The position numbers and the translations under genes are program-made. From Pseudomonadota bacterium (GTDB lineage Bacteria; Pseudomonadota; Gammaproteobacteria; Pseudomonadales; Moraxellaceae): 64,000 nucleotides of DNA. The notes beneath the pieces were generated by a model. That model saw nothing but the letters and a program-made list of their open reading frames with translations. It was not told where the DNA came from and made no database searches. The DNA is taken from the NCBI GenBank assembly GCA_021851865.1, contig JAJZBU010000005.1, positions 1 through 64,000 on the forward strand. The letters are read 5' to 3'. Below are positions 550 to 5,376 of this stretch, in pieces (the first letter of the stretch is position 1; each line of letters starts with the position of its first letter).

Positions 550-868
550 TGGTGCCCGAGGTCGGACTCGAACCGACAAGCCTTGCGGCGGAGGATTTTC
601 TTCCCACTTCGGCTTTCGCCGCCGTCCAGCACAGGGCTGGACGTTCGTGGTCTGGAGCACGCCTTCACCATAGCCATAATCGGCCGTAGGTGCCCGCCGT
701 CTGCTCTCTACACCTTCCCGGGTCTTGCGATCCGGGCTTGGCTCGGCATTAGCTCGAACTTGCGTTCAGGGCCTTCACCGAGTTTGACGGGCTTCACCTC
801 TGGAGTTTCCTCCGGAGGGCTCAAATTGTGTCTGAGTCCTCTGCGTCTACCAATTCCACCACTCGGGC
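550..868 (-). tRNA. tRNA-Leu(CAA), interrupted by a group I intron
   Basis: On the minus strand the 5' exon (868-834, 35 nt) starts GCCCGAGTGGTGGAATTGG and runs to GAGGACTC. The 3' exon (599-550, 50 nt) begins AAAATCCTC and ends CTCGGGCACCA with an encoded CCA. Joined, they give an 85-nt tRNA: acceptor GCCCGAG/CTCGGGC, anticodon stem GAGGA/TCCTC, loop CTCAAAA (anticodon CAA), long variable arm with stem GCC-GCAA-GGC, and T arm GTCGG-TTCGAGT-CCGAC. Leucine identity follows from anticodon, long variable arm and D arm. The exons are split between anticodon positions 34 and 35 by 234 nt. Placement just upstream of the divergent queA is common in Gammaproteobacteria. Confidence 0.93.
600..833 (-). 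ncRNA. Group I intron (IC3-like) in tRNA-Leu
   Basis: The intron lies between C34 and A35 of the anticodon, the site used by cyanobacterial tRNA-Leu(UAA) group I introns. Core strings match that family: TTTGAGCC with guide GAG, TCAAACTCGG, AATGCCGAGCCAAGCC, GGAAGGTGTAGAGAGCA, and the hairpin GGCGGCGAAAGCC near the 3' end. P7 can form between GAGCA (706-702) and TGCTC (659-655), a compensatory variant of the GACU/AGUC pairing recalled from the Anabaena intron. The last nucleotide is G (position 600), the expected omega-G. At 234 nt it is too short for a homing endonuclease gene. Self-splicing is inferred, not shown. Confidence 0.9.
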
Positions 869-882
869 GTGGAAGGTTGCCC

Positions 883-910
883 ATTATAGGGATGGCGAGC
901 GCCGAGTCAA
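883..910 (-). promoter_or_regulatory. Sigma-70 promoter of the tRNA-Leu gene
   Basis: On the minus strand TTGACT (910-905) is followed after 16 nt by a perfect TATAAT (888-883). The tRNA 5' end is at 868, so transcription would start a few bases before the mature end. Confidence 0.8.
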
Positions 911-970
911 TCCTTGACCACGCAGTGTGCCGCTTTCTGTTACAATCGCCGCCACGGCGGAACCGATGAC

Positions 971-3126
<2,156 letters not shown>

Positions 3127-3507: not shown

Positions 3508-5376
3508 ATGCGTAACGCCGTGTGGAAGAATGTATTGATCATCCTGGTGGTGATCGTCAGCGTCATCTACTCCCTGCCCAATCTTTATCCCGATCAGCCG
3601 GCCATCCAGATCACTGGCGCCTCGGCGGGCGATCGCGTGCCGGTGACGGCCATCGCCAGCGCCGAGCAGGCCATCCAGGCGGTCGGTGTGTCGGCGCAGG
3701 CACCGGAGGTGGGGGCCAAAGGTGTGCTGATCCGCGTGCACAATGCTGAAGATCAGCTGAAGGCGCAAGACGCCGTGCGCCGCGCGCTCGGCGACGCTTA
3801 TGTCGTGGCTTTGAACTTGGCGCCGACGACGCCGGCATGGCTGCACGCCCTCGATGCCTCACCGATGAAACTCGGTCTCGATCTGCGCGGCGGCGTCCAT
3901 TTCCTGCTCGAAGTCGATCTGCAAAAAGCGATCGCCGCGCGTCTTGAGTCGTCCATCGAGGATCTGCGCACGCATCTGCGCGAAGGCAAGGTCACTTATC
4001 GCGGCATCAGCGTCGTCGCCGACCATCTGCAGGTGAAGTTCGACACGAGCCGCGATCGGCAACAGGGCAGTGATCTGATCAAGAGCGCCTTTCCTGAGTT
4101 TCTCCAGAGCCAAGAGGATCAGCCCGGAGTATTCTACCTCGATCTGAGCCTGATCCCGGGGCGCCTCAAGGAGATCAGCGATGAGGCTGTCAGCCAGAAT
4201 CTGACGACTTTGCGCAATCGCGTCAACGAACTCGGCGTCGCCGACGCCATGGTGCAGCGGCAAGGCGCCAATCGCATCGTCGTCGAACTGCCGGGGGTGC
4301 AGGACACGGCCGAGGCAAAACGTGTGATCGGGCGGACCGCGACCCTGGAATTCCGTTTTGTCGACTGGCAGCATGAAGGCGCCGACCCGTCGCTGCCAGC
4401 ACCGCCTGGCGCTGAATGGTATCCCTTCAAGGGCCATCAGCGGCCACCGGTGCTCCTGCAGAAGCAGGTCATCGTCACCGGTGAGCACGTCTCCGGCGCG
4501 CACGCTGATTTTGATGAGAATTCGCAACCTCAGGTGAGCATCGATCTCGACACCCTCGGTGGTCGGCGCATGACCGAAGCGACGCGCAACAACCTCCTGC
4601 GGCCGATGGCGGTGCTCTTCGTCGAACAGAAGATGCGCACCCTCTACAGCAAGAACGCCGCCGGTCAGGACGTCGAGACGCGCCAGCCCTACACGGTCAA
4701 GCAGGTGATCAATGTCGCCACCGTGCAGTCGGTGCTCGGTTCGCAATTCCGTATCACCGGCCTCGATTCGCCGGCTGAAGCGTCGGAGTTGGCGCTGTTG
4801 CTGCGCGCTGGCGCGTTGGCGGCGCCGATGTACTTCGTTGAAGAGCGCACGGTGGGCCCGAGCCTGGGACAGGAGAATATTGACAAGGGCGTGCGTTCGA
4901 CCCTGCTGGGCTTGCTGTTGGTGGTCATCTTCATGGTCGCCAACTACAAGGTCTTCGGCCTCGTCGCCAATGCCGCCATGCTGCTCAACGTCGCCATTCT
5001 GATGTCGCTCATGGGGGCCTTTGGCGCCACCTTGTCCTTGCCCGGCATCGCCGGCATCGTGCTTTCGGTGGGCATGTCGGTCGACGCCAATGTGCTCATC
5101 TTCGAGCGCATCCGCGAAGAGCTGTGGCGCGGACTGTCACCGCAGGCGGCGATCAGCGCCGGCTATGACCGCGCCTTCACCACCATTCTCGACTCCAACC
5201 TCTCCATCCTCATCGTCGCCAGCATCCTCATCGCCATGGGTGCAGGTCCGGTGAAGGGCTTTGCCGTGACCCTGGCGATCGGCATTCTGGCGTCGATGTT
5301 CACCGCCATCACGGTGACCCGTACCATCATCAACGCGATTTATGGTGGACGCCGGATTTCCCGGCTGTCCATCTGA
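3508..5376 (+). CDS. secD: Protein translocase subunit SecD
   Basis: With SecF forms the proton-driven membrane complex that pulls secreted proteins out of SecYEG on the periplasmic side. The 622-residue protein has an N-terminal helix (VLIILVVIVSVIYSLPNLYP), a large periplasmic region starting at GLDLRGGVHFLLEVD, and a C-terminal RND-type membrane bundle with VGMSVDANVLIFERIREE containing the conserved acidic residue. Length is normal. secF follows after 12 bp. Confidence 0.97.
   Translation: MRNAVWKNVLIILVVIVSVIYSLPNLYPDQPAIQITGASAGDRVPVTAIASAEQAIQAVGVSAQAPEVGAKGVLIRVHNAEDQLKAQDAVRRALGDAYVVALNLAPTTPAWLHALDASPMKLGLDLRGGVHFLLEVDLQKAIAARLESSIEDLRTHLREGKVTYRGISVVADHLQVKFDTSRDRQQGSDLIKSAFPEFLQSQEDQPGVFYLDLSLIPGRLKEISDEAVSQNLTTLRNRVNELGVADAMVQRQGANRIVVELPGVQDTAEAKRVIGRTATLEFRFVDWQHEGADPSLPAPPGAEWYPFKGHQRPPVLLQKQVIVTGEHVSGAHADFDENSQPQVSIDLDTLGGRRMTEATRNNLLRPMAVLFVEQKMRTLYSKNAAGQDVETRQPYTVKQVINVATVQSVLGSQFRITGLDSPAEASELALLLRAGALAAPMYFVEERTVGPSLGQENIDKGVRSTLLGLLLVVIFMVANYKVFGLVANAAMLLNVAILMSLMGAFGATLSLPGIAGIVLSVGMSVDANVLIFERIREELWRGLSPQAAISAGYDRAFTTILDSNLSILIVASILIAMGAGPVKGFAVTLAIGILASMFTAITVTRTIINAIYGGRRISRLSI

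Follow-up and report, generated by a model that had tools for sequence, protein, structure and literature searches.

The split tRNA-Leu(CAA) gene

The window, i.e. the whole stretch of 64,000 nucleotides (nt) analysed here (positions 1 to 64,000 of contig JAJZBU010000005.1, assembly GCA_021851865.1, a gammaproteobacterium of the family Moraxellaceae), carries at 868..550 of its minus strand a gene for an 85-nt tRNA-Leu(CAA), which on direct reading is interrupted after C34 by a group I intron of 234 nt. Taken overall, the observations on this gene and its relatives are very probably best explained by a self-splicing split tRNA-Leu(CAA), acquired whole from a clade of introns residing in tRNA-Leu(CAA) genes (CAA introns, to be told from the UAA introns of tRNA-Leu(UAA)). 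An initial annotation had described a tRNA-Leu of 85 nt, an insert of 234 nt between tRNA positions 34 and 35, a terminal G and the P7 strands GAGCA/TGCTC (706-702 / 659-655), and all of these were recovered. Its group I assignment gains support from the intron mode of ARAGORN, a full-length, sub-threshold match to RF00028 and covariation. What it overlooked is that C34 stands in place of the usual U of the 5' splice-site G.U pair.

With introns permitted, ARAGORN reports a single gene in the 64 kb, a tRNA-Leu(caa) of 85 bases at c[550,868] with an intron of 234 and the junctions gactc-intron-aaaat, and so agrees with the isoacceptor first proposed. The warning that tRNA finders would miss the gene was borne out as well: without introns ARAGORN reports 0 tRNA genes in the window, and Rfam at gathering thresholds has no match there. 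Finders in default mode can thus call a tRNA missing though it is present in split form. RF00028 gives no match across the whole genome at E 0.001; at a relaxed threshold it matches 843-652 over its full model length (26.2 bits, E 1.3e-4 in 601 nt), so that the check by covariance model suggested in the initial annotation does yield a match, if a weak one, short of the gathering score of 50 bits, which is a curator's threshold and no biological feature. When five other intron-bearing loci were searched with RF00028, three scored 30.3, 32.1 and 38.6 bits, and the CAA introns L361 and L369 gave no row at E up to 0.5; with scores below 50 or absent, the curated models under-call the tRNA-Leu intron family. 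A model built from 43 of 54 selected tRNA-intron cores, a wider set (alignment A2), gives the window site 122.8 bits (E 1e-27 in a search of the genome that scored 150 of 879 first-look candidates), a match that is not independent because the training set included the 97%-identical intron L002. The match of the window to a group I intron is far above chance.

No gene is evident inside the 234-nt intron. A mechanically called plus-strand open reading frame (583-969, TTG start) overlaps the tRNA and is regarded as a chance product.

The genome of the window (G000) is a draft of 2.44 Mb in 54 contigs, with completeness given as 100. Among plasmid records, its Tgt is most similar to enterobacterial ones (68.5% at best), which agrees in broad outline with a gammaproteobacterium. 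It has 38 tRNA matches above the Rfam cut-off, and ARAGORN, run on the loci covering them, identifies leucine tRNAs with the anticodons UAA, UAG, CAG and GAG. Neither these loci nor a pattern search for a CAA gene without interruption yielded the second, intact tRNA-Leu(CAA) that the initial annotation had named as a possible refutation. In eight hand-picked genes of the window, UUG accounts for 81 of 396 leucine codons and UUA for 2.

Intron structure and the 5' splice site

Alignment A1 comprises 44 introns, i.e. that of the window, 13 other CAA introns and 30 UAA introns, all from one clade picked from the tree described below. Under a 68-pair group I structure that counts P7 and P10 in as pseudoknots, 95.3% of the cells of A1 are paired, and both sides have changed in 23 pairs. 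None of 500 shuffles reaches any of five measures, and when partners are shifted by 1-3 columns pairing amounts to only 33-43%; the structure was drawn on the window sequence and is biased in its favour. Within A1, P7 is invariant and P3 nearly so. In A2, P7 is 100% paired and occurs in six types, each fully complementary, and the whole structure exceeds all shuffles in three of the five measures. The window intron possesses the core helices P3, P4, P6, P7 and P8 with the P3/P7 pseudoknot, and a P1 between CUC of the 5' exon end and the guide GAG, paired in 100% of A1 cells. It also ends, as a group I intron should, in a G, and its removal joins the exons exactly into a tRNA; a by-eye trial of other registers gave none with both a proper tRNA and a terminal G. 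The element is thus a group I intron that probably excises itself from tRNA-Leu(CAA). We infer its splicing from sequence and structure: a guanosine bound in P7 would attack after C34, the released 5' exon would attack after the terminal G, and the exons would join into a tRNA that reads UUG.

In each of the 14 CAA introns of A1 the 5' exon ends with a C that lies opposite the guide G, whereas in all 30 UAA introns it ends with a U, forming U.G with the guide. The canonical G.U wobble at the 5' splice site is therefore absent from the window intron, which has C-G there. In ribozyme chemistry the G.U pair is held to be near-obligatory. Excerpts of the literature call it 'a strong requisite' (PMC6274277), give G:U, with U on the exon strand, together with P1 as the only strict sequence requirement of trans-splicing group I ribozymes (PMC6155759), and describe recognition of the wobble by J4/5 adenosines (PMC10020454). 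CAA introns would accordingly have to use the C-G pair as 5' splice site, and a natural clade in which the one complete copy found of the tRNA has C-G offers a direct test of splice-site choice.

Positions were taken to separate CAA from UAA introns if a state occurred in at least 13 of the 14 CAA and at most 3 of the 30 UAA introns of A1. Those inside the intron are two near its 5' end and three flanking the J4/5 adenosines (A1 row positions 69, 91 and 94), a hint that the J4/5 receptor may have been retuned in CAA introns. It is taken as a hint, no more, since the comparison concerns one clade, and since both the 69/91 pair and the CAA-type J4/5 are also found in UAA introns. The case for the J4/5 G.U pair of positions 69/91 as a CAA-specific feature was weakened accordingly: it occurs in 16/16 CAA introns, including the separate CAA intron L096, but also in 17 of the 86 UAA introns that could be parsed (a further 2 did not parse; viral ones are included). 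One UAA intron (L364, genome G1434) possesses the whole CAA-type J4/5 and is perhaps a recombinant.

Features of the split gene and its surroundings in the window
Feature	Position	Strand	Remarks
5' exon of tRNA-Leu(CAA)	834..868	-	35 nt, ends GACTC, C34 at 834; direct reading and ARAGORN
Group I intron, IC3-like	600..833	-	234 nt, terminal G at 600; direct reading, RF00028, ARAGORN, alignment A1
3' exon of tRNA-Leu(CAA)	550..599	-	50 nt, AAAATCC...CACCA, CCA encoded; direct reading and ARAGORN
Sigma-70-type promoter, TTGACT-16-TATAAT	883..910	-	11/12 consensus matches; mean of shuffles 0.2
Internal guide GAG	820..822	-	Pairs with CUC (836-834) in P1; alignment A1
UUU able to pair with AAA of the 3' exon (P10)	823..825	-	97.7% of cells paired, A1
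J4/5 5' strand, GAAG, wobble-receptor region	773..776	-	A1; role of J4/5 as in excerpt of PMC10020454
J4/5 3' strand, UAAU	748..751	-	CAA introns and most UAA introns differ here
P7 5' strand, GAGCA, guanosine-binding helix	702..706	-	Alignments A1 and A2
P7 3' strand, UGCUC	655..659	-	Alignments A1 and A2
queA, divergent neighbour	938..1984	+	Pfam PF02547; also adjoins the intron-free locus of congener G021 (PF02547 there too)

Related introns and the elements that carry them

Introns of the IC3 type in tRNA-Leu(UAA) genes occur in cyanobacteria, in plastids and also in proteobacteria. The window intron is like them in its insertion point (34|35), core and terminal G, and the guide GAG is present in the 30 UAA introns of A1; it differs in its CAA host, in the C rather than U at the end of the 5' exon and, mostly, in the flanks of J4/5. 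A gammaproteobacterial tRNA-Leu(UAA) intron was reportedly published in 2002. Giant sulfur bacteria (Thiomargarita, Beggiatoa) have group I introns in tRNA-Leu and tRNA-Arg according to an excerpt of PMC4853749; there, as here, a gammaproteobacterial tRNA-Leu is interrupted by an intron, a putative group I one in a sulfur oxidiser, but the tRNA is given as tRNA-Leu-TAA and not CAA. Further small tRNA group I introns reside in other tRNAs, i.e. the tRNA-Ile intron of Azoarcus, with a 3-nt guide and the G-U pair kept at the 5' splice site (excerpt of PMC6274277), and the tRNA-Ile2 introns of Acidovorax and Burkholderia (excerpt of PMC8450103). A literature search, which covered few subscription papers, gave among the matches listed no report of a bacterial tRNA-Leu(CAA) group I intron or of an intron-containing tRNA borne on an integrative and conjugative element (ICE).

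In searches of genomic DNA, a small number of top candidates was scored for each genome (7 in the family, 2 in the order, 3 in the families f109 and f181 introduced below), and the counts from these searches, like those from pattern scans of sequence collections, are lower bounds. Among 99 genomes of the family, a strong intron match was found only in G000 and its congener G005, i.e. in 2 of the 3 genomes of the genus; the other listed family matches are exons, except for 33 nt in G039 that belong to the intron of another tRNA (L027). At least 10 of 390 genomes of the order match the intron DNA. The nine beyond G000 comprise eight UAA introns, no CAA intron and one locus (L324) without such an intron; ARAGORN calls five of the eight Leu(taa) and labels three Phe(aaa), yet these have the same CTT|AAAA site. 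A CAA-type intron pattern occurred, among the matches listed, in at least 3 of 369 genomes of the class, of which one, the window, is real, and in at least 6 of 398 genomes of a phylum sample, of which three are real (G000, G1174 and G1189). Of the other pattern matches, L314, L315 (class) and L330 (phylum, where L314 recurs) contain no recognisable tRNA, and the gene at L327 has no intron. Four further introns called 'CAA' by ARAGORN (L188, L214, L226 and L300) lack the terminal G and were set aside as wrong calls.

The families of G1174 and G1189, f109 and f181, were searched in turn, and intron DNA is matched in at least 35 of 200 and at least 25 of 197 genomes, respectively. The 30 loci returned from f109 comprise 6 CAA introns, 16 UAA introns and 8 in other tRNAs; the 28 from f181 comprise 7 CAA introns, 16 UAA introns and 5 without assigned type. 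G1189 and G1465 have one CAA and one UAA intron each, and G1174 has a second match to intron DNA in its genome. Introns of f109 are identical to those at named Hydrogenophaga and Rivibacter loci, which weakly suggests that f109 is Burkholderiales, weakly because introns move.

A tree of 84 of 88 tRNA-Leu introns, identical ones merged, unites the 14 distinct CAA introns of the window's class in one clade (100/97) nested among UAA introns; the introns of the window and G005 fall inside it, and the remaining members come from f181 and f109. The window intron thus nests among UAA introns although its own host is tRNA-Leu(CAA). CAA intron L096, from a metagenome-assembled genome of the Coriobacteriia, stands apart on a long branch. 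UAA introns among the 45 best listed are 74-85% identical to the window intron. The initial annotation needs amending on two further points: proteobacteria often have a tRNA-Leu intron at this position, and the CAA form is a clade and no singleton.

Plasmids and phages, searched with the window intron, gave only 60-80% identity. At that level 1275 plasmid records match, 839 of them Escherichia or Klebsiella. Plasmid record L311 (NZ_CP139688.1) has at ~3889-4189, near aac(3)-IId, what by eye is a tRNA-Leu(UAA) gene containing a group I intron; ARAGORN calls it Stop(tta) with a different junction. A loose CAA-type pattern matched at least 120 stretches of viral contigs, and among the 80 of 120 run in ARAGORN no split tRNA came out whose 5' exon contains AGACGC. 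The IMG/VR contigs L191-L310, some of which may be bacterial, hold 18 tRNA-Leu(UAA) introns with resolved junctions; an excerpt of a 2014 review places all phage introns seen until then in protein genes (PMC3984707).

Twenty genomes were checked by pattern for an uninterrupted CAA gene: 15 with an intron of the clade, four for comparison and that of L096. Six of the 15 (G000, G005, G1189, G1465, G1485 and G1512) have no match, and the other nine have one that ARAGORN does not accept as a tRNA, because the host gene is broken directly after CTCAAAA. As far as the pattern and draft assemblies can show, an intact tRNA-Leu(CAA) is found in 0/15 intron-bearing genomes and in 4/4 comparison genomes, in which no CAA intron is known (G021, G018, G1434 and G1395); the L096 genome has no match to the pattern. 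In eight of the nine genomes with a broken gene, the host 5' half lies ~200 bp upstream of the split gene, and trbI is present in the examined stretch in seven of these, with none at L365. In the ninth, G1458, broken half and split gene are on separate contigs and the sequence after the break differs.

In G1195 the host tRNA 3' half lies 82.4 kb further on, adjoining a tyrosine recombinase, and the split tRNA has trb genes behind it; Pfam matches were obtained for the integrase and 6/7 putative trb proteins. G1358 and G1174 have the same plan by similarity to G1195, with ends 66.8 kb apart; the elements of G1378 and G1280 run to contig ends. As judged by gene content and ends, the three traced elements (G1195, G1358 and G1174) are ICEs in the tRNA-Leu(CAA) anticodon loop with CTCAAAA at both ends. 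They resemble tRNA-inserting trb-type ICEs in having the integrase by one end, trb by the other and host tRNA halves at the ends, and add a complete, intron-split replacement tRNA; the window is without such ICE genes. Other tRNA-targeting elements restore the end of the host tRNA. In the ICE's own gene the intron divides the same string, CTC|AAAA, and this division would block the integrase. The ICE context would give a group I intron a plausible job, that of keeping a replacement tRNA from the element's own integrase. The ICEs of G1358 (C2) and G1174 (C1), two different genera, are both ~66.8 kb long with equal identities to the G1195 genes, which points to probable recent transfer.

Origin of the gene

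Congener G021 has an uninterrupted tRNA-Leu(CAA) gene of 87 nt, divergent from queA and preceded by a promoter stretch similar by eye to that of the window gene. The comparison of related genomes with and without the intron, suggested in the initial annotation, thus sets G021 against G005. The window exons match G021's gene at 73 positions, and they are 85/85 identical to those of five f181 genes (L361, L362, L365, L369 and L370). The best reading of such identity with another family, beside a different uninterrupted gene next to queA in G021, is that the entire gene body, exons together with intron, was replaced horizontally. Between the two origins first envisaged, transfer or deep retention, transfer is therefore favoured and deep retention disfavoured. 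The gene body would have been acquired, with its intron, by an ancestor of G000 and G005 and would now stand behind the native promoter. Whole tRNA-Leu(UAA) intron loci reportedly recombine in cyanobacteria (Rudi et al. 2002), where likewise the tRNA locus moves together with the intron, there UAA and not CAA.

Several relatives of the window gene would be replacement copies on ICEs that target the anticodon loop of the host tRNA-Leu(CAA). Two of the five f181 genes, L362 (G1406) and L365 (G1498), are split copies behind a broken host tRNA; L361, L369 and L370 have identical exons, with no broken half seen. We infer that an ICE delivered the window copy: such delivery would fit if the two 5' halves then recombined and so placed the incoming gene behind the native promoter. 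A fuller scenario, which we regard as possible while giving it clearly less than even chances, holds that CAA introns abandoned the G.U pair and splice from C-G by way of a retuned J4/5, that the ICE uses the split tRNA to replace the host tRNA it destroys, its copy being integrase-proof through the division of CTCAAAA, and that the window gene is a captured copy.

Several points weigh against a self-splicing gene acquired in this way. tRNA-Leu(UAA) could read UUG by wobble, and the gene may be dispensable; for this reason the split gene is not called essential. The Rfam score lies under the cut-off, and in A2 neither pairs with double changes nor further pair types exceed shuffles (two of the five measures). 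No broken half accompanies the window gene, and neither Int nor Trb was matched in the window, in C7:60000-79999 (L073) or in 10.6 kb of G005 (L536), so that the integrase, trb genes and split host tRNA of an ICE are all missing from its locus. The intron is 97% identical between G000 and G005, where queA and tgt differ at 124/390 fourfold sites; either selection on the intron or recent exchange may account for this, and exchange between the two species could be the source. Finally, with C-G in place of the G:U required in trans-splicing ribozymes (excerpt of PMC6155759), splicing may be slow or need help.

Decay would take this last point further: an intron unable to splice from an exon ending in C34 would make the tRNA a pseudogene and leave UUG to tRNA-Leu(UAA). 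C-G instead of U.G in all 14 CAA rows of A1 and the intact tRNA-Leu(UAA) gene of G000 agree with it, yet exons identical at 85/85 positions across families, an intron with much lower divergence than that at fourfold sites, 14 copies that keep their core helices, 0/15 genomes with another complete CAA gene and good use of UUG in the counted window genes make decay improbable. Vertical inheritance, with an intron ancestral to the genus and lost in G021, draws on the locus, similar promoter and queA neighbour shared by G021 and G000; a strong match in only G000 and G005 of the 99 family genomes, exons that agree with f181 genes (85/85) rather than with the congener (73 matches), and the nesting of the intron in a clade otherwise from f109 and f181 render it most unlikely. 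Entry of the intron alone into the native gene, through homing or through reverse splicing, would suit a guide GAG that pairs fully with CUC; here too the chances are slim, since both exons changed as well, acceptor stem and variable arm included, towards the 85/85 identity with f181, and since none of the 3 genus genomes combines native exons with a window-type intron.

In G005 the sequence 3' of the tRNA (L072 2390-4624) encodes an ATPase-like protein, a further reading frame and a small DUF1778-like protein, names that are guesses from sequence. G000 has a second group I intron (core at C45:42135-42256; L510 1382-1707, 98.1 bits with the A2 model), which, as judged by eye, lies between U33 and C34 of what is apparently its only tRNA-Ile2(CAU) and which ARAGORN labels Ser(tga); G039, of the same family, has an intron at the same tRNA-Ile2 site (L027).
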